Assembly (NCBI GenBank): GCA_938015255.1
Contig: CALLQC010000127.1
Location: 1-34,935 of the forward strand
Length of the DNA: 34,935 nucleotides
Direction: 5' to 3'
DNA from: an uncultured Erythrobacter sp.
GTDB lineage: Bacteria > Pseudomonadota > Alphaproteobacteria > Sphingomonadales > Sphingomonadaceae
Shown here in pieces: positions 24,342 through 34,935 of the stretch. Numbering within the stretch: the stretch's first letter is position 1; each line of letters opens with the position of its first letter. Position numbers and translations under genes: made by a program. Below the pieces are notes generated by a model. The model did not search any database. It was not told where the DNA came from and saw only the letters and a program-made list of their open reading frames with translations.

Positions 24342-25406
24342 TTAGACGTTGAGCCTGACTTCCGACGCCTCCCGATTGAGGCGGTCGAGTGCGCTGGTGT
24401 GCAATCCGGCCAGCTCAACATTGCCGCTGAGTTCGAATATCTCCGACGCCGTCTCATGAAAATCGCGGAACAGGGCGTTGGTTGTGTTGAGCGGGACATC
24501 GGCGAAAGTGCGGTTAATGTGCTCTTCGGCAGTGGCCAGATTTCCGCGATCAAGCTCGATCTGCGCCAGCACACCGTAGATGAAAGGCGTCCAATCTGCG
24601 GCGAACTTTTCTGCCAGCCCGAGCGCCCGGTTCGCAGTTTCCTCAGCCTGGTCAACGGCGCCGCCGAGTTGCTGGGCTGAGGCAAGGTTTGTGAGAATTC
24701 GCGCCTGAAGGATTGGGCTCGACATCTTTTCGGCGATCACCAGAGCCTTGCCGAATTCGGCTTCTGCTTCGTCAAAGCGCTTCATGCCACGCAGCGCATT
24801 TCCGATGTTGTTGTGCGCCGAAAGCGAAAGGATGGCGTCATCGGAAAAAACAGTGGCAGCCTTGCTGTAATAGCGCAGTGTCTCTTCATATTCCTTGGCC
24901 CGCGAGTAGAGAGACCCGATATTCTGCAGGACAATCGCCTGGCTCCGTGCGTCACCAAGCTGCTCATACCGCTGTTCCGCCATCATGAAGAAGGCGAGAG
25001 CCTGGCTTGAATTTCCAGTCCGGCCTTCAAGCGATGCAGCGGAACGCAGAAGGTCAGCATAGATCTTTTCCTCAGCGAAAGACCTCGATGCGGCAGCAAG
25101 TGCGGGGCGGATGATTGTTGCAGCTTCCTCGCTCCGGTTAAGGCGCAGCAGCGCCTCCCCTTCGAGCCAGTTGGCTGTCAGGCGATCCCGCGTGGCTTCG
25201 CCAGTCTTTCCTTCGATCAGGTGCTTTGCACCGCGCGCCAGATCAAGCGCCACTCCCGGATTCTTGACCATCATGGACTTGGCTTTCGCGATGCTGGTGT
25301 GGTGCACACCGGCTTCTACCTCCGTCCCGGCATATGCCGGCGCGGCCGAGGCGATAAGCAGCGCCGCAGCAGCTGAACCGATTCCTTTGATCCCTGTTTT
25401 GAGCAT
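24342..25406 (-). CDS. Exported tetratricopeptide repeat protein
   Basis: Signal peptide MLKTGIKGIGSAAAALLIASAAPAYAG; TPR-like helical repeats (SQALAFFMMAEQRYEQLGDARSQAIVLQNIGSLYSRAKEYEETLRYYSKAATVF, FDEAEAEFGKALVIAEK). Start placed at ATG 25406. Confidence 0.88.
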   Translation of the reverse strand: MLKTGIKGIGSAAAALLIASAAPAYAGTEVEAGVHHTSIAKAKSMMVKNPGVALDLARGAKHLIEGKTGEATRDRLTANWLEGEALLRLNRSEEAATIIRPALAAASRSFAEEKIYADLLRSAASLEGRTGNSSQALAFFMMAEQRYEQLGDARSQAIVLQNIGSLYSRAKEYEETLRYYSKAATVFSDDAILSLSAHNNIGNALRGMKRFDEAEAEFGKALVIAEKMSSPILQARILTNLASAQQLGGAVDQAEETANRALGLAEKFAADWTPFIYGVLAQIELDRGNLATAEEHINRTFADVPLNTTNALFRDFHETASEIFELSGNVELAGLHTSALDRLNREASEVRLNV

Positions 25407-25480
25407 TCTTAGTCCCTTGCTCGTGTTCTCGATTGGAAGGTCGATGTGGTTGATTTTACCGCTGATCATCATAGCCTCCC

Positions 25481-28400
25481 TTAAAACCGCAGTCCGAAGT
25501 TGGCGCCGATCATAAGCGCTTCCTCCTGATCCTGCCCCCCAGCGCTGACATAGCGACCGAACAGACCAAACTCGGAGCCTTCGGTAACCGGCGTCGCGTA
25601 GACGATCTCGCCTGCGATACGCCGCTTCGTCTCAATGCCAATCGTCTGATCGACGCGGCCCAGCTCGCCGGTTGCACGGTCGACGACCTGAAGGCTTCCG
25701 AACTCAAGCTCGCCATCCTCGACATTCAATGGCTGACCCACAGAAACGCGCAGTCTGTCCCGATCACCAACCAAGCCTTGCTTGCTAAGCGCGACCTGTC
25801 CCGCCGTGGTCCAAACTGTTCCGCGGTTCGAAAGGAACTGCGCATCGTTGGTTTCACTGGCGGCGCCGGTTGCGGAAAGGTCGAATGCAAAGCCATCGCC
25901 AAAATCGATCGAAGCAGAAACGGTAACAGCATCTGTCGCCGTCCCGTTATCAAGCAGCGTAGCCTGTGCACCGAACATCGCATCCTGTTCATCAAGCCGG
26001 GTCCACTGCGCATTGACGGTGAAGCCATCAGCAACCTTTTGCTCTAGCGACAGCGAGAGAGCCGAAGCCTCGCGCGCTCCCAGACGCTGGCGGCTGGCCA
26101 CTTCGAGCGCATCGTCCGTGTTTAGCTCGCTCCAGTCTTCGCGGTTCGCACTGAAACCAACGCTGACTGTGGTTGTCGACGCGATCTTGTAGCTCGCCTG
26201 TCCAAACAGCTCACCGGAGGCAAGACCAAGGATAGGGTTCACCCCGCCCGAGTATGGATCGTAATCGCTGACAACTCCAAATCCTTCGCCGGAAAGCGCC
26301 ATAGCGCCCTGGCCGTGGCCGAATGTCATCGCAAACTTGCCAGATGGATCTGTCAGCGTTGCCGCATTGTGAACCGGCACAAACTGGCCCTGCTGAGAAA
26401 CGCGTGGCTGGATCGCCTCGACAGCAATCTTCCACTGGCCGCCCGTTTCCACGGCTCCAGACCGGATCTGTGAAATGCCAGCCGTGCCGTCACCGTCACG
26501 GTCCGCGCCGCTGCTTACCAGCCAGTTGGCGAAACGGTCTGCGACGAAGTCCTGCATCCGCTGATAACCATTGCCAAGGGCATTGGTCGACTTGCCGTAT
26601 TGGAATGACGATGCCGGGATCGCGAAGTCACGGTGCGTATCGCCGATGTCTTCGATCCCGGTCAGATACACGTCATCCGTTTCCCACCAGCTCGGGATGC
26701 CGCCTTCGGCCAGCAGCTGTCCGGCGGTCTGCTCGTACGAGCGGAAGCTTTTCCCTTTCCGCTGGAACAGCGTGAAAGACATGCTGCCAAAATCAAGCGG
26801 CGATTGCGAGGCTGCCACGTCCAGCAGGCCATGCCCGTAAACAGCGTCGACACCCGGAGCACCAAGATCGCGTGCAGATGTCAGAATAATGTCGGCCGTT
26901 TCGTCTGCATGGTCCTGCAGCCACGGCCACCTGTCATGCAAGAGTGCGATCGCGCCTGAAACTAGCGGTGCCGCGAACGAAGTGCCGGACCGGCGTACAA
27001 CGCCGCCATTGCCATCGCTTACAAGCAGCAATTCTCCCGGCGCCACAATAAACCGGTTCATCAATTCATTACCGGAACGGCAAACGCCATTGTCCAGCAG
27101 GCATGATGTGCCTGGGCGGTTGGAGAAATTCGAAATGGTTCCATTTGGACGAACGGAACCCACGAAGATCGCAGTAGAATCGCTTTCTCTGCCCAAGGCA
27201 CCGTTTACGTAGCCCCAGTTGATATCTGCGGTCTGGGTAATACCATCATTGCCCGCAGCGATCACAAAAACCGTGTTGTCAGTGTTTGTCGTAATCGTGG
27301 GGTCAGCCAGCACGTCTGCGAGACCTTGAGATGCGACCCAACCAGACTCGCCGAGCGAGAGGTTTACGACACTTACAGCCTGATCGCGGCCCAGCAGCGT
27401 GTTGAAGCGATTGTATTCGCCAGCAAAGCGCAGTGCGGTTGAGACACGCGACCAGGTCGTTTGCCCGTCAGCATCAAAGGGGTTAAATGCAAAGATATTG
27501 GCATTTGGCGCGATACCCATCACTCCCTGCCCATCATGCGCAGCAGCGATAAGGCTCACGACGCCGGAGCCGTGACCGTTAAGATCCGTATTTGCGCCGT
27601 CAGCGAAGTAATATCGCCGGACGATATTGTCACTCAGATCGCCGGAATTGAAATTGCTGTCGATCACGGCGATCAGCGTATCCGCTCCATCGCCCTGGAT
27701 TTGTGTCAGCGCTGGGGTCCAGTTGATCGTTCCCATCCAGTGGTCGACCGCATCAATACCCGAAAAGGTGTTTACGGTATCATGCCAGTCGAGGAAAAAC
27801 GCAGCGCGTTGGGCGGTGGTCAAACTCAGCGTTGAAAGATCGTTGAGCGATATACCGTGGCGAGCATAGACTTCATTAGCGCGCTCTTGGGTAAAGCCGT
27901 TCGCGCCAAACCGACCAATCGCGTTGCCGTTCAAAACGTTCAGCCGATAATTCACACTCGACAGTTGGCCGTTATCCCAAGACGCATTCGCTGCCGAAAT
28001 CAGCTCACCGTTGGTCTGCCAAAAATTTCCAATGGAGGCGAGATTGACCGCATCGAAGGCAACAATGTCACCCCAAAACGCATCAATATCACCCCAGAAA
28101 GCGGTAATGTCCCCATAGAACGGGCTAATGTCGCCCCAGAATGCATCGATGTCGCCATAAAAGGCGTCAATGTCGCCATAAAATGGGCTGATATCATCCC
28201 AGAAGGCATCAATGTCACCGTAGAACGCGACGATATCGCCGTAGAATGCGTCGATATCGCCGTAGCGCGCGTCCAAGTGGAAGCCGCTCAGGCTGCGTGC
28301 GGTTACAACTCCGTCGGCCAGCACTGGTCCTATCGTCAGGTCCGCAGTCGGCGCTGGAACGGCTACGAAGCCTCCGCTTGATTGCGCCCCGATAGCACCA

Positions 28401-28654
28401 GGCGCGAAGGTTCCCTGATCAATCACACCAAGAGGTACAGATAGCTCGCCCTTTACCTCCGGCGACTGCATCGGAGCTTGACTGCTGACAGTTAGATCAG
28501 TGCCCGGCATCTCCAATACGTTTTCGAAGCCAATGACCGGTTCGCTCTTTATCGTTTCAGAAGGGACAGCCATCGCGCCTGTGTTCGCTTGCGCCGAGGT
28601 GGCGAGCGACATGGCGACGGCAAAAGTCGCGCTGCTGATAGACAATGACTTCAT
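25481..28654 (-). CDS. S8 (subtilisin-like) serine peptidase with heptapeptide repeats and beta-rich C-terminus (autotransporter-like)
   Basis: Signal peptide MKSLSISSATFAVAMSLATSAQA; triad motifs DTLIAVIDSNF, DLNGHGSGVVSLIAA, SGTSFAAPLVSGAIALLHD; oxyanion region VFVIAAGNDG; C-terminus ends in aromatic (MIGANFGLRF). Start placed at ATG 28654. Confidence 0.92.
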   Translation of the reverse strand: MKSLSISSATFAVAMSLATSAQANTGAMAVPSETIKSEPVIGFENVLEMPGTDLTVSSQAPMQSPEVKGELSVPLGVIDQGTFAPGAIGAQSSGGFVAVPAPTADLTIGPVLADGVVTARSLSGFHLDARYGDIDAFYGDIVAFYGDIDAFWDDISPFYGDIDAFYGDIDAFWGDISPFYGDITAFWGDIDAFWGDIVAFDAVNLASIGNFWQTNGELISAANASWDNGQLSSVNYRLNVLNGNAIGRFGANGFTQERANEVYARHGISLNDLSTLSLTTAQRAAFFLDWHDTVNTFSGIDAVDHWMGTINWTPALTQIQGDGADTLIAVIDSNFNSGDLSDNIVRRYYFADGANTDLNGHGSGVVSLIAAAHDGQGVMGIAPNANIFAFNPFDADGQTTWSRVSTALRFAGEYNRFNTLLGRDQAVSVVNLSLGESGWVASQGLADVLADPTITTNTDNTVFVIAAGNDGITQTADINWGYVNGALGRESDSTAIFVGSVRPNGTISNFSNRPGTSCLLDNGVCRSGNELMNRFIVAPGELLLVSDGNGGVVRRSGTSFAAPLVSGAIALLHDRWPWLQDHADETADIILTSARDLGAPGVDAVYGHGLLDVAASQSPLDFGSMSFTLFQRKGKSFRSYEQTAGQLLAEGGIPSWWETDDVYLTGIEDIGDTHRDFAIPASSFQYGKSTNALGNGYQRMQDFVADRFANWLVSSGADRDGDGTAGISQIRSGAVETGGQWKIAVEAIQPRVSQQGQFVPVHNAATLTDPSGKFAMTFGHGQGAMALSGEGFGVVSDYDPYSGGVNPILGLASGELFGQASYKIASTTTVSVGFSANREDWSELNTDDALEVASRQRLGAREASALSLSLEQKVADGFTVNAQWTRLDEQDAMFGAQATLLDNGTATDAVTVSASIDFGDGFAFDLSATGAASETNDAQFLSNRGTVWTTAGQVALSKQGLVGDRDRLRVSVGQPLNVEDGELEFGSLQVVDRATGELGRVDQTIGIETKRRIAGEIVYATPVTEGSEFGLFGRYVSAGGQDQEEALMIGANFGLRF
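28055..28264 (-). repeat. Ten tandem 21-bp units encoding (Y/W)(G/D)DI(D/V/S/T)(A/P)F
   Basis: YGDIDAF YGDIVAF YGDIDAF WDDISPF YGDIDAF YGDIDAF WGDISPF YGDITAF WGDIDAF WGDIVAF, exactly 10 x 7 residues. Confidence 0.97.
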
Positions 28655-29005
28655 GGCATTATTTCCATTGGTTTTGGGCACTTTGATGCGCCGGACGTCG
28701 GAAATCTTATAGCCGATGAGGTTCTGTGGTTTCGTTTGGAGAGTACGTTAATATTGTAAGAATATCAGTGAGCTTGCCGTGATCGCTGCGTTGGTTAACA
28801 TCAAATTTAGATCTCCGCTGACCGCTCATCGTGACGTTTAATTATTGCTTAAAGCCCGATGGGCGGCACCAATCAGAAACCCTTACTTGGTTGGAAATTG
28901 TTAAAGTGTGAGGAGCGGCTCAGAACGACCACACAGGCGATTCGCAGTTCGGCCTGATCATGCATGGCCAGCGAACGGCGTGTCAGCCGAATAACTTAAT
29001 AAAGC

Positions 29006-29576: not shown

Positions 29577-30947
29577 ATGGCTGACCATTCATGGACGATT
29601 GCCGCGACGCGGTTTGGCTATGGGCTGAAGCCATCGGCCGCGCGAAACGGTTCACCGCAGGCATGGCTGAAACGGCAGATTGAAGACTATCACCCCCGGC
29701 CCAGGGCATTGGTGGGCCTGCCAAGTTCGGGCCTGATTGCGCGGGAGTTTGGGGCGTTCCGCAGACTGCGTAATGACGATCAAGATACCAAACGTGCAGC
29801 ACGGCGTGCATTGCGCAGTCATTTGCGCGACGCGATTGGCGCGCGCATCGAATTGGCGGTGCACACCTCATCCCCCTTTACCGAACGGCTGGTGCATTTC
29901 TGGGCCAATCACTTCGCCATTTCGACTGAGAAGCCCGGTGCTGGCCCGCTTGCCGGGAGCTTTGAAGCAGAAGTTATCCGCCCGCATCTTTTTGGCCGGT
30001 TTTCCGATATGCTGCGTACGGCGGAAACGCATCCGGCGATGCTGATCTATCTCGATCAGGCGCAATCAATCGGCCCCAACAGCCGGCGCGGGCAAGCCGC
30101 TGCACAGCGCGGCAGGCGGCGCGCGGGTTTGAACGAAAATCTTGCGCGTGAGATTCTTGAATTGCACACTTTGGGTGTTCGTTCGGGATATACGCAAAGC
30201 GATGTGACTGAATTCGCCAAGGCGTTGACAGGGCACACCGTTCCTGTGCTGCGGCGGGGCCGCTATGCCGCTGGTCGCGATGACGGAAATCGGACCTATG
30301 CGTTCACGCCGCCCCTCCACGAACCCGGCCCCAAAACCGTGCTGGGCACGACATATCGCGAAGATGGCGCGCGTGAAGCGATGCGGATATTTGATGATCT
30401 GGCCGCCCATCCGGCAACAGCGAAGCATATCGCGACCAAGCTGGCGCGGCATTTTTCGTCTGATGATCCGCCGCCTGCACTCGTCAACCGGCTGGAGCGC
30501 AGTTTCTTGGAAAACGGGGGCGACCTTGGCGCAGTGACGCTGTCTTTGATCGAAGCCCCGGAGGTTTGGCAGACCCAGCGTCAAAAGTTCCTCAGCCCAT
30601 GGGAGTGGAGCATCGCATCGCTCCGAGCGATTGAAATGGACCGTTTCGAGCCAATGCAGGTCCGCCGTATGATGATCAATCTGGGGCAGGATCTGTGGAA
30701 GCCGGGTTCACCTGCTGGTTTTGATGACAAGGCATCCACATGGGCCGCCCCCGAAGCGTTGCACCGGCGTGTCGAAGCAGCTCAGACCATCGGCAGGCGC
30801 GGATCGCGGCGTGACGCGCGGGCCCTTGCCCCGCTGATATATGCAGGTGTCTGGAGTGAAACTAGCGCGACAGCAGTAGCGCGTGCAGAAAGTCCGGCAC
30901 AGGCAATGGCGCTGATGCTGGCAAGCCCGGAGGCAATGTGGCGATGA
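29577..30947 (+). CDS. DUF1800 domain-containing protein
   Basis: TIAATRFGYGLKP, RLVHFWANHFAIS, NLAREILELHTLGVRSGYTQSDVTEFAKALTGHTV, IATKLARHF. Start ATG 29577 has AAGGAGGT upstream. Confidence 0.93.
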   Translation: MADHSWTIAATRFGYGLKPSAARNGSPQAWLKRQIEDYHPRPRALVGLPSSGLIAREFGAFRRLRNDDQDTKRAARRALRSHLRDAIGARIELAVHTSSPFTERLVHFWANHFAISTEKPGAGPLAGSFEAEVIRPHLFGRFSDMLRTAETHPAMLIYLDQAQSIGPNSRRGQAAAQRGRRRAGLNENLAREILELHTLGVRSGYTQSDVTEFAKALTGHTVPVLRRGRYAAGRDDGNRTYAFTPPLHEPGPKTVLGTTYREDGAREAMRIFDDLAAHPATAKHIATKLARHFSSDDPPPALVNRLERSFLENGGDLGAVTLSLIEAPEVWQTQRQKFLSPWEWSIASLRAIEMDRFEPMQVRRMMINLGQDLWKPGSPAGFDDKASTWAAPEALHRRVEAAQTIGRRGSRRDARALAPLIYAGVWSETSATAVARAESPAQAMALMLASPEAMWR

Positions 30948-32068
30948 TTATCAACCGGCGAAATATGCTTGGCGGATCGGCCGCAGTTATTGGCGCGTCC
31001 ATGCTACCCAGAGTGGCCTTTGCCGCTGGCGGCATCGGGTCAAAGCGAATGGTCTTTGTCTTGCAGCGCGGGGCCGCAGATGGCCTTGGCATAATCGCAC
31101 CCGTCGGCGATCCCAACTATGCGGGCCTGCGCGGAACACTGGCGGAAGATTATGCGGATGCTCCGCTCATCGGAGGCCTTTTTGCCCTTCACCCCGCTCT
31201 TGAACGCTCAGCTGCAATGTTTGCTAGCGGCGAGATGATGGCGGTCCATGCCGTAGCCTCCACTTACCGCGACCGATCGCATTTCGACGGACAAAACGTA
31301 CTCGAAAGCGGCGGAACACGCCCTTACGAACGCAAGGATGGCTGGCTCAATCGCCTCGTCGGGATGCTGCCCGATGTGCGGGCTTCGGGCATTGCCATCG
31401 CTCAAAACATCCCTTTGGCTCTTCAGGGGGCGCACAAAGCGGGCTCATACGCGCCTTCGCGGTTGCCCGATGCGGATGACGATTACATGCGGCGAGTTGG
31501 TCAGCTTTATATGGGTGATGAGCGGCTGCACATGCTTTGGGAAGAAAGCCTTGCAACCCGCGCCATGGCCGAAGGGATGGATGGCAGTGGCAATATGCGG
31601 CAGGCCGCCGATGTCGGCGCCTTGGCGGCAAGGATGCTTACGGGAGAAGACGGCGCACGCGTCGCCATGATCGAGACGACCGGATGGGACACGCATAACG
31701 GTCAGCGCCAGCGCCTTGGCCGCGAGCTGCGCAATCTCGATACGCTGATCGACGCTCTGAAAGCAGGTATGGGCGATCTTTGGTCAGACACATTGGTGAT
31801 TGTCGCCACAGAATTCGGGCGCACAGCATCCATCAACGGAACCAATGGGACCGATCACGGCACAGGTTCAGCAACCCTGCTTTACGGCGGATCGCTGGCC
31901 GGCGGCAAAGTTCTGGGCGATTGGCCCGGCCTGCGCCAGAGCGATCTTTATCAGGCGCGCGATCTCAAACCGACAAGCGCGCTGGAAGATGTGATCACCT
32001 CCACATGTGCCGGCCATTTTGCGCTAGATCCGGAGCTTACGCGGGAGACGCTGTTCCCCGGACGTTGA
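30938..32068 (+). CDS. DUF1501 domain-containing protein (Tat-type signal)
   Basis: INRRNMLGGSAAVIGASMLPRVAFA twin-arginine-like signal; MVFVLQRGAADGLGIIAPVGDPNY, DTLVIVATEFGRTASINGTNGTDHGTGSATLLYGG; overlaps the DUF1800 gene. Confidence 0.93.
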   Translation: MAMIINRRNMLGGSAAVIGASMLPRVAFAAGGIGSKRMVFVLQRGAADGLGIIAPVGDPNYAGLRGTLAEDYADAPLIGGLFALHPALERSAAMFASGEMMAVHAVASTYRDRSHFDGQNVLESGGTRPYERKDGWLNRLVGMLPDVRASGIAIAQNIPLALQGAHKAGSYAPSRLPDADDDYMRRVGQLYMGDERLHMLWEESLATRAMAEGMDGSGNMRQAADVGALAARMLTGEDGARVAMIETTGWDTHNGQRQRLGRELRNLDTLIDALKAGMGDLWSDTLVIVATEFGRTASINGTNGTDHGTGSATLLYGGSLAGGKVLGDWPGLRQSDLYQARDLKPTSALEDVITSTCAGHFALDPELTRETLFPGR

Positions 32069-32096: not shown

Positions 32097-33167
32097 TCAT
32101 TCTGCGCTGTCGTAAGCAAGCCTGAAACCGACATTTGATGCGCCCAGCCCGGCGTCACGGCCTTGCCGGCTTTCAGGGCGATAACGCTGGCAATAGTTGG
32201 GCGCGCAAAGGTAACTGCCCCCTTTCATCACGCGGCTGGTAAAACCGGGATTGAGCGGGTCATAGGCGGCGTTTTCACTGGGGCCGCGGGGATTGACCCG
32301 GTCGGCCGGATCATGGCCCGGCCGGAAAAAATCGGCGGTCACTTCCCACACATTGCCAACCATATCATACAGCCCATAGCCGTTGGCCTCGAAACACCCG
32401 ACCGGGGCAATCCCTTTGAACCCGTCACTGCTTTCATTGACGACCGGGAACACCCCCTGCCAGCTGTTTGCGAGGCGCGGATCGGGTTGCTCTGTGTATT
32501 TCTGCGCGCCTGCACTCGCCGCATATTCCCACTCGGCTTCGGTAGGAATGCGCCCGCCCTTCCACTCGGCATAAGTACGCATATCGTCCCATGCCAGATG
32601 GACCACCGGCTGGTCAGGCCGCGCACTTGGCCCTTGCGGGCCATAGGGCTTGCGCCAATTCGCACCAGGCACATATTTCCACCAGTCGCCATAGCTGCGC
32701 GATGGGTGTTCTGGCGGGGTAAAGACGGCAGAGCCCGGCTCCAGCATGAATGGCGGAATCTGCTCGACCGGCACGCCGAACTGCGCCGGATCTACGGGTT
32801 TTTCGGCAACGGTTTGGTATCCTGTCGCTTCGGCAAATTCTGCGAACTGGCCATTGGTCACTTCATGCGGATCGATCCAAAAGCCATCGACCCTTGTTTC
32901 TCGCTCCAGGCCCTCTTCCGCGTAAACAGCGTTGCTGCCCATGATGAAGGTTCCGCCTTCGATCCGCACACGCGCGCTGGCGGGAGTTTTGCAGCTAAGC
33001 GCCGAGGCAAAGTCGCTTGCCTTGGTTGGCAGGGGTTCACCGTTTGCTCCGCCTTGCTCGCTTTGCGACGCGCTGCACGCCGCCAGGCCGAGCGCGACGC
33101 TTGCCGCTATCGCACAGCGCTTTGAGAAAAATGGTGGACTAAAGCTCCGGATCGCAAGTCGTCTCAT
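32097..33167 (-). CDS. Formylglycine-generating enzyme (sulfatase-modifying factor) family protein, exported, probable lipoprotein
   Basis: IEGGTFIMGS, VDGFWIDPHEVTNGQFAEFAEATGYQTVAEKP, GRIPTEAEWEYAA, MVGNVWEV, GGSYLCAPNYCQRYRPESRQG...ASNVGFRLA; N-terminus ALGLAACSAS (lipobox). Confidence 0.93.
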   Translation of the reverse strand: MRRLAIRSFSPPFFSKRCAIAASVALGLAACSASQSEQGGANGEPLPTKASDFASALSCKTPASARVRIEGGTFIMGSNAVYAEEGLERETRVDGFWIDPHEVTNGQFAEFAEATGYQTVAEKPVDPAQFGVPVEQIPPFMLEPGSAVFTPPEHPSRSYGDWWKYVPGANWRKPYGPQGPSARPDQPVVHLAWDDMRTYAEWKGGRIPTEAEWEYAASAGAQKYTEQPDPRLANSWQGVFPVVNESSDGFKGIAPVGCFEANGYGLYDMVGNVWEVTADFFRPGHDPADRVNPRGPSENAAYDPLNPGFTSRVMKGGSYLCAPNYCQRYRPESRQGRDAGLGASNVGFRLAYDSAE

Positions 33168-33175
33168 AAGCCGAT

Positions 33176-34582
33176 TTAGCGCTGGTTGACAGGCCGTGTC
33201 ACGGGTCCATTATCCCCCAGCAAATACATGCGCCGCTCATCTGTACCTCGCGCTCTTTCGGCGACCACCACACGCGCATCGGGGTGCGCATTGCGGATAA
33301 AGCTACTGATCGCGAAACTCGCGTTATCCCGCACCAGAAGCTCGCTTGTGCGCTTGAAACTGGCCCCGGCGTCATCGCTTTCCCACCAGGCAACCATACC
33401 ATCGCCAACGTTGTTCTGGGATGCCAGCAGAAAGCGGACATCGTCGCGGTTGTCGACCACCAGATCGCCATTGCCCACCGGGAGTTTCGTCGATTGTCCG
33501 CCAACCCACTCACTGCCGCTCCAGCGGTAATGGCGCATCTGTTTGGGGCCGCCGACTTTGGACACGCCCAGATCCTCACCCATGGTGATACCTATGTGGG
33601 GATGCCCATGGTCATCGAGTGTCACCGATGCGTTGAAAGACCAAAGATCACCTGATTTGGCGACCAGCGCCTTGTCTTCGGCAACTTCGCGCGTCAGCGG
33701 CATGGGCAATTCTTCACCTTCGACGTTGCGCCAGCTGCCATCGCCCGTGTCAAAGACCATATAGAACAGATCCTGACGGTTGGCGGTGTGGCCGCGCGCG
33801 TCAGGCGCCCCTGCCCCGTCCCAGCAGAGATGGTAGTCAAAGCTGACAATAATCTCATCACCCTGCCCCTTGGTCACATAGGGATACCAGCTATCGACTG
33901 CCTGCAAATCGGTGCGGCGCTTGTGCTTAAGGAAAGAAACAGGCTCACCAAATGTGCGGCCATTGTCGGTCGATTTGTGATAGACCCAGTCGCTGCGATG
34001 CGCGCCATGGCGATAGAACAGATAGATGTCGCCATTATCCATCTTCACCACCTGATTATACGTGCCAAAAGGCGGGATCGTGTCCAGCTCCTCCCACTCG
34101 GAGATGTCATAAGGCCGTTTCGACACGACATGCTTGTTTTCACCGTAATGGTGATTGCCAAGCGAATTCTCACCCAGTTCAGGCGTGCCGCCATGACCGC
34201 CAAAGAAGATATGAATATAGCCCGCATCATCAATGATCAGGGTCGGCTTGCCATGATTATCAATCTTGCGCGTGGGATCTTTGCCCATCGCGCTGACACC
34301 GGCTTTGAACGGCCCGTTCCATTCGCCAGTTTCGTGATTGTACGATGCGACATAGGGGTCTTCGAGCGGCCCCTGATAGCTCACATAAGTGATGCCATCC
34401 TTATGCTCACCGGCCGGGTGCTGGACCACGGCAACCGCATTGCCCAGACCGTTATCGGCAAAGTGTTCAGTTTGGATCGATGCGGCCGCAGAGCCACTTG
34501 GCGAACCATAGGCAGTGCTGCATCCCGTAAGACCGCCTAAGCCAAGCGTGAATGCCGCCGCCAGGAGAAGAGAATTTTTCAT
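33176..34582 (-). CDS. BNR-repeat propeller lipoprotein, possible polysaccharide (ulvan-type) lyase
   Basis: MKNSLLLAAAFTLGLGGLTGCSTAYG (lipobox LTGC); HGKPTLIIDDAGYIHIFFGGHGGTPELG, YNQVVKMDNGDIYLFYRHGAHRSDWVYHKSTDNGRTF; next to GH105. Start placed at ATG 34582. Confidence 0.72.
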   Translation of the reverse strand: MKNSLLLAAAFTLGLGGLTGCSTAYGSPSGSAAASIQTEHFADNGLGNAVAVVQHPAGEHKDGITYVSYQGPLEDPYVASYNHETGEWNGPFKAGVSAMGKDPTRKIDNHGKPTLIIDDAGYIHIFFGGHGGTPELGENSLGNHHYGENKHVVSKRPYDISEWEELDTIPPFGTYNQVVKMDNGDIYLFYRHGAHRSDWVYHKSTDNGRTFGEPVSFLKHKRRTDLQAVDSWYPYVTKGQGDEIIVSFDYHLCWDGAGAPDARGHTANRQDLFYMVFDTGDGSWRNVEGEELPMPLTREVAEDKALVAKSGDLWSFNASVTLDDHGHPHIGITMGEDLGVSKVGGPKQMRHYRWSGSEWVGGQSTKLPVGNGDLVVDNRDDVRFLLASQNNVGDGMVAWWESDDAGASFKRTSELLVRDNASFAISSFIRNAHPDARVVVAERARGTDERRMYLLGDNGPVTRPVNQR

Positions 34583-34605
34583 GTATTTGGACCCTGCTTG
34601 GTGGT

Positions 34606-34935
34606 TCAAAGCATTTCGGATGCGAACAGCAACATGCCACCGGTTGCGTAAAGCTGGCTGGTGTCGGCATCGGTGGTTTGCGGATCCTTGCCGATTTGCT
34701 GAACCCAGCCGACTTTGCCGCTGTCTGTGGTCGCTTTGCGCATCGCATCCCACGCCTTGTCGCGAGCCGCCTCGTATTGCGCGCCCTCGATCATGCCGTT
34801 GTTCAGGCCCCACGCCAGACCAAAGCCGAAAAAGGCCGTGCCGCTGGTTTCGGGATTGGTCAGATATTCCGCATCCATCAGCGACGTTGGCCAATAGCCA
34901 TCCTCTCTCTGGATTTCGACCAGTTTGGCGGCGAG
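34606..34935 (-). CDS. Glycoside hydrolase family 105 (unsaturated uronyl/rhamnogalacturonyl hydrolase), C-terminal part, runs off right edge
   Basis: Open to the edge: LAAKLVEIQREDGYWPTSLMDAEYLTNPETSGTAFFGFGLAWGLNNGMIEG...KVGWVQQIGKDPQTTDADTSQLYATGGMLLFASEML. Confidence 0.85.
   Translation of the reverse strand, partial: LAAKLVEIQREDGYWPTSLMDAEYLTNPETSGTAFFGFGLAWGLNNGMIEGAQYEAARDKAWDAMRKATTDSGKVGWVQQIGKDPQTTDADTSQLYATGGMLLFASEML

Follow-up and report, generated by a model that had tools for sequence, protein, structure and literature searches.

A conserved protease-TPR receptor operon in Alphaproteobacteria, with a tandem heptapeptide array as candidate receptor ligand

Secreted subtilisin-like (S8) proteases from many alphaproteobacterial orders carry a conserved array of tandem seven-residue units at the N-terminus, and the genes for these proteases form a conserved operon with a gene for a TPR protein. 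The case described here comes from an uncultured Erythrobacter sp., in a stretch of 34,935 nucleotides (contig CALLQC010000127.1, forward strand) that is referred to below as the window. The functional pairing of the protease with the TPR receptor is well supported, and suggests an undescribed protease-receptor signaling pair. Tentatively, and at a little short of an even chance, we favor a reading of the array as a multivalent, linear N-terminal peptide tract of an autotransporter-like protease that acts as a ligand of the periplasmic TPR domain encoded downstream, a binding that we infer.

The S8 protease and its heptad array

The protease, its parts and its partner gene are laid out in the window as follows.

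25481..28654, minus strand: coding sequence of the heptad-repeat S8 protease, 1057 amino acids (open reading frame; Pfam PF00082, 2e-32; 31-member alignment A1)
28586..28654, minus strand: signal peptide MKSLSISSATFAVAMSLATSAQA, read from the sequence, its position conserved in homologues
28265..28585, minus strand: variable low-complexity linker, residues 24-130, unalignable among homologues (pLDDT 22-28)
28055..28264, minus strand: array of ten 7-residue units in tandem (residues 131-200), conserved in every homologue readable there
27725..28054, minus strand: all-helical conserved domain, residues 201-310, between array and protease (AlphaFold pLDDT ~98)
26828..27685, minus strand: S8 subtilase domain, residues 324-609 (Pfam; Foldseek against subtilisins, E ~1e-12)
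25484..26209, minus strand: C-terminal region of ~12 antiparallel strands ending in Phe (AlphaFold/DSSP)
25475..25480, minus strand: GGGAGG, resembling a Shine-Dalgarno sequence, in the gap from the S8 stop codon to the start ATG of the TPR gene
24342..25472, minus strand: TPR-only partner gene, 376 amino acids, predicted to be secreted (Pfam TPR_12, 7e-22; aligned with full-length receptors)
24357..25304, minus strand: predicted periplasmic TPR domain of the partner, 316 residues (alignment A5)

The ATG at 28654 is the likely start of the protease, with a GTG also in frame at 28681. The window protein scores 113 bits against PF00082 (gathering score 21.8), a domain that is likewise found in all 31 aligned members, and the catalytic triad of D332, H361 and S559 is invariant in these homologues, with N469 as the candidate for the oxyanion hole. 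The C-terminal region is predicted to be an autotransporter-like outer-membrane barrel; the full-length AlphaFold model that holds the barrel strands is of modest quality (mean pLDDT 62), and a terminal Phe is present in most homologues. No Pfam autotransporter or barrel family matched the 31 aligned members at E 0.01, the predicted barrel had no sequence match of weight among solved barrels in the PDB, and the fold of the helical domain had no PDB match with E < 0.9.

The array itself (28055-28264, minus strand) reads YGDIDAF YGDIVAF YGDIDAF WDDISPF YGDIDAF YGDIDAF WGDISPF YGDITAF WGDIDAF WGDIVAF. The ten uninterrupted 7-mers that an earlier note had described were confirmed from the sequence, in one open frame, and nine of the ten fit the (Y/W)GDIxxF pattern that it had given to all of them, the fourth (WDDISPF) being the one that deviates. 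The array comes after the signal peptide and the variable linker, with the helical domain interposed before the S8 domain. A 21-residue superperiod of three units, also proposed there, did not hold up: unit identity at lag 3 is 0.80, as against 0.70-0.74 at other lags, which is not significant under unit shuffling (P=0.14), and lag 3 is significant in just 3 of 76 homologues, a number that chance would give.

With 31 full-length homologues, AlphaFold2 gave the array a pLDDT of 22-29 and no secondary structure, and with 61 diverse N-terminal segments a pLDDT of 33-41, again with no secondary structure, next to 98 for the adjacent helical domain; the array is accordingly predicted to be unstructured, a low pLDDT being no proof of disorder.

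Elsewhere in the window, adjoining DUF1800 and DUF1501 genes (29577-32068; E 4e-116 and 1e-33) are divergent from the protease, a pair that does not recur beside the protease in other genomes, and an FGE-sulfatase-type gene adjoins a BNR_4 repeat protein (32100-34894).

Distribution of the array among homologues

Full-length relatives of the protease occur in 27 of 114 genomes of the same genus. A single-protein query of a genome collection gave no match, and a profile query, built from the alignment, of the same collection confirmed at least 318 relatives, the best 80 of which (79 distinct loci) come from Erythrobacter, Sphingomicrobium, Sphingomonas, Novosphingobium, Maricaulis, Phenylobacterium/Caulobacter, Parvularcula and others. 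Recognizable units are present in 83 of 85 distinct proteins, at 3-29 per protein and 933 in total, the diverged ones being undercounted since units were found with a motif pattern. One of the two proteins lacking them is an open reading frame that starts past the repeats at a contig edge, and the other has a disrupted frame. That orthologues carry it shows the array to be no product of chance.

The consensus over the 933 units is [YW]G[DN]I[DNS][PA]F. Position 1 is Y/W or H, G, S, A or R; position 2 is G (903 of 933); position 3 is D/N, position 4 I/L/V, position 5 D/N/S/R/G and position 6 P/A; and position 7 is F (875 of 933). The GDI core, whose conservation in relatives the earlier note had chosen as a test of its proposal, is kept in all readable orthologues. 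Species-specific flavors of the unit include WGNLDSF, WGNLDTF, GGDINPF and YGNIGAF, and some, such as YGIIRPF and TGFIRAF, do not keep the Asp positions. The same note had recognized no named repeat family, and indeed none of four repeat flavors compared with Pfam rose above a gathering cut-off.

Every repeat match that was read through in the order sample lies inside an S8 protease. The phylum sample added one more S8 protein, which belongs to a different family within the class, and a phylum-wide search for the repeat outside the class yielded only one unrelated repeat.

Several apparent relatives of the repeat were set aside. Matches in phages are unrelated low-complexity proteins, and those in plasmids are translated, iteron-like DNA repeats beside or overlapping replication-initiator genes. 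In two of the latter, from Chryseobacterium and Nitratiruptor plasmids (L164 601-762 and L165 601-801), the DNA repeats by the initiator genes translate as FYGDIIQ and FYGITQT, and are probably iterons rather than protein repeats. A match of the repeat profile to the RNA polymerase II CTD reflects periodicity only, with single stretches scoring 3-5 bits. The N-terminus of one homologue (L090) matches the NCBIfam model of the RiPP precursor TigB at 39.8 bits against a cut-off of 70, a match that likely stems from repeat composition. The array was rejected as a RiPP precursor because no maturation enzyme recurs beside the protease-TPR pair.

Codon divergence and selection on the units

The units of one protein resemble each other (identity 0.70) more than they do those of other proteins (0.53), a difference found mainly at unit positions 1, 3, 5 and 6, so each protein has its own flavor on a fixed G-x-I-x-x-F frame. 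The argument of the earlier note from synonymous divergence between the units is borne out and can be sharpened, as codon pairs for the same residue differ in 57% of cases in the window array; the control, same-residue codons elsewhere in the protease gene, likewise differs in 57%. Selection at the protein level, rather than recent slippage, is thereby supported for the array on the evidence of its codons.

The extremes are 27 copies of WGNLDSF, in a Hyphomonadaceae MAG (L120), and 29 copies of WGNLDTF, in Ponticaulis (L123). In both, the counted units are 100% identical in amino acids, ~50% of codon pairs differ (controls, 55-56%), and Ser is encoded by AGY as well as TCN codons. When the two loci are compared, the spacers align, position 6 differs in all units at once and the synonymous codons are near-saturated. 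A codon test on orthologous units of the WGNLDSF and WGNLDTF proteins, which sets a parallel in-place S/T change against an old homogenization, gave P=0.18. Codon divergence is below the control in several other proteins, so that older or partial homogenization has occurred as well.

The TPR partner and its linkage to the protease

Clustering of the open reading frames that flank the protease loci gave one recurrent neighbor, the TPR gene; a third gene recurring beside the pair in most loci was not found. The partner is built of an N-terminal signal sequence and a TPR domain, to which a membrane helix and an output in the cytoplasm are usually added, and the TPR domain, whose location is predicted to be periplasmic, measures 316-319 residues in the 28 members of alignment A5. 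While this length stays constant, the outputs are swapped by lineage: GGDEF-EAL in the Erythrobacter types, EAL with an unrecognized GGDEF in the Maricaulis types, HisKA-HATPase in the Hyphomonadaceae and Caulobacter types, and a kinase plus receiver in the Parvularcula types. A separate EAL protein lies upstream at several kinase-type loci. TPR motifs were matched in all ten flanking relatives scanned, and the TPR profile matches the TPRs of Rap phosphatase (RapF) and LGN/Pins in the PDB. A modifying enzyme as partner, such as a sulfotransferase or an Asp/Asn hydroxylase, was considered and discarded, the domains being GGDEF, EAL, HisKA or receiver.

Within the genus (114 genomes), the TPR domain is found in 27 of 27 genomes with the protease and in 1 of 87 without it, the exception being a partial match in a 77%-complete genome; Fisher's test gives 2.5e-25 for this co-occurrence when the kinship of the genomes is ignored. 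For all 31 protease copies, the TPR domain starts on the same strand 127-282 bp downstream of where the S8 match stops. All 15 protease genomes of the order sample have the receptor adjacent by coordinates (divergently in G345), and among the named genomes a TPR gene flanks the protease at 76 of 84 loci, mostly directly downstream, with several of the remaining eight stopping at a contig edge.

Another genus of the same family (g23) has a more divergent TPR-kinase, preceded by a gene whose sequence is of EAL/GGDEF type, but not the protease. The receptor is therefore not exclusive to the protease, which was apparently either recruited to a pre-existing signaling module or lost from it. The loci examined in this genus and its relatives (L196-L206) encode divergent TPR-histidine kinases, several with an EAL/GGDEF-like gene upstream, and have no S8 repeat protease nearby.

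The partner encoded in the window begins with an ATG 8 bases past the S8 stop codon and ends just past the TPR domain, without a membrane helix or output. In the genus, TPR-only genes of this kind fall into a single clade (support 94/98), and at least five genomes retain one. In one genome (G071:C3:604518-609671) the protease, a TPR-only gene and a full TPR receptor stand in a row, which is a receptor duplication and truncation within one operon. The genome of the window has a second protease copy, on contig C96, that is cut by the contig end before its N-terminus and is followed by a full TPR-GGDEF-EAL gene.

Possible roles of the array

An autotransporter passenger is expected to leave the periplasm with its N-terminus last, so a periplasmic TPR domain could read the state of secretion. 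TPR domains are known peptide binders whose grooves take short extended peptides, which, together with the predicted extended state of the array, favors the array as the ligand, as does the conserved TPR gene downstream, the most telling feature of the locus and one that the earlier note had overlooked. Uniformity of the units within a protein, combined with change between species, fits a single partner: were every unit obliged to fit that partner, identity within proteins, difference between species and near-saturated synonymous sites would all be expected. In the mechanism that we propose, the TPR domain would bind the 7-mers while the array is in the periplasm, and occupancy of the receptor would couple the state of the surface protease, in its secretion or processing, to c-di-GMP or phosphorelay signaling. 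The window partner, having lost its output, might be a soluble periplasmic binder, holdase or decoy, and may work beside the full receptor that is paired with the second protease copy of the same genome.

Ranked next, and rather unlikely in our estimate, is that the array is an extracellular tract (a spacer, a stalk or a sticky low-complexity segment at the distal tip of the passenger), and that what the TPR domain senses is secretion stress or a different region of the protease, for example the helical domain. The predicted disorder of the array agrees with this, a copy number ranging from 3 to 29 is tolerable for a spacer, and the helical domain shows stronger conservation and is predicted to fold. 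Covariation does not single out the TPR domain: in partial Mantel tests, repeat flavor is correlated with TPR distance when the protease domain is controlled for (0.315) and no longer so when the barrel is (0.024, P=0.40), and it tracks the barrel and helical domain no worse than the TPR domain. A spacer, however, has no need of G2, I4 and F7, which are kept in nearly all 933 units, nor of 27 or 29 units that are all identical despite near-saturated synonymous sites. Such uniformity would also suit a precursor of released heptapeptides, cut after F7 by the S8 protease to give a species-specific pheromone for the TPR receptor. Subtilisins often accept large hydrophobic P1 residues, and fungal alpha-pheromone tandem precursors and Gram-positive RNPP receptors share the precursor-receptor logic that tandem identical peptides, species-specific flavors, a linked subtilisin and a linked TPR receptor would add up to. 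But many arrays, that of the window included, mix several unit types, and peptides of ~800 Da would have to re-enter the periplasm. We rate this account as improbable.

A slightly smaller chance still is given to the array and helical domain as a pseudosubstrate or propeptide by which the protease would be held inactive before it is secreted; an inhibitor-like propeptide was also among the proposals of the earlier note. Both lie directly N-terminal of the protease, and the hydrophobic residues of the units would be acceptable to subtilisin pockets; the helical domain, though, differs from the ferredoxin-like fold of known subtilase propeptides, and inhibition does not require 10-29 copies. The folded solenoid or metal-binding module that the earlier note had entertained is very improbable: the period is regular and Asp/Asn are common at positions 3 and 5, but AlphaFold2 found no fold for the array with either 31 or 61 sequences, and the Asp positions are lost in some flavors.

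The reading of the array as the TPR ligand would account for units that are uniform in each protein and differ among species despite randomized codons, and would imply a peptide-to-c-di-GMP (or kinase) route in marine and freshwater Alphaproteobacteria. Put more broadly, and held with somewhat more reserve, this could be a form of Gram-negative peptide signaling in which a dedicated TPR receptor in the periplasm, its c-di-GMP or histidine-kinase output interchangeable, reads the tandem species-specific heptapeptide of a self-displayed subtilisin, whether tethered during secretion or released.

Comparison with known systems

Full-text searches of open-licence papers returned no paper with the repeat words, and none in that literature that describes this type of operon; the protease-receptor operons are apparently unnamed, despite the at least 318 protease relatives in one genome collection. 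Among the closest known systems are the subtilase autotransporters (Ssp of Serratia marcescens, PMC9977779; EprS, fusolisin and the NalP/SphB1 types), which likewise combine a secreted S8 domain with a predicted C-terminal barrel. In the present proteins, by contrast, a heptad array and a helical domain precede the protease, the barrel is unrecognized by Pfam and a conserved TPR receptor gene follows downstream. Ssp has a 248-residue beta-helix associated with its subtilase, and a heptad array is not described there (PMC9977779).

In the Lap and Dvh systems (LapD/LapG/LapA; DvhD/DvhG, PMC13090378), too, a protease is encoded together with a surface protein and with a c-di-GMP protein of the membrane that has a domain in the periplasm. 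Here, however, protease and secreted surface protein are one and the same, the domain in the periplasm is of TPR type, the outputs include histidine kinases and the operon has no LapG-type protease or RTX adhesin. In place of the LapD-type HAMP-GGDEF-EAL receptor, LapG and retained RTX adhesin that define a Lap-type system, the partner found is a TPR-GGDEF-EAL or TPR-kinase protein. Periplasmic TPR sensor kinases such as FimS of Porphyromonas share a TPR sensor domain ahead of a histidine kinase, the NCBIfam match to FimS being weak (E 4e-8, score 32 against a cut-off of 600); in the present family, kinases and c-di-GMP enzymes replace each other as outputs, and the receptor gene shares its operon with an S8 protease.

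For the repeat itself, the RNA polymerase II CTD offers a likeness, with no homology implied, in its disordered tandem repeats of seven residues, which begin with an aromatic residue and contain a proline turn. The RNPP/Rap receptors bind short peptides in a TPR superhelix, and RapF is matched by the TPR profile of the partner; those receptors are cytoplasmic and Gram-positive, whereas here the TPR domain is exported and the candidate ligand lies in tandem within a protease. Autotransporters of the S8 type, sensors with TPR domains and protease/c-di-GMP operons (Lap, Dvh) are all known, and it is their combination with a heptad-array protease that, to the extent our tools reveal, is new.
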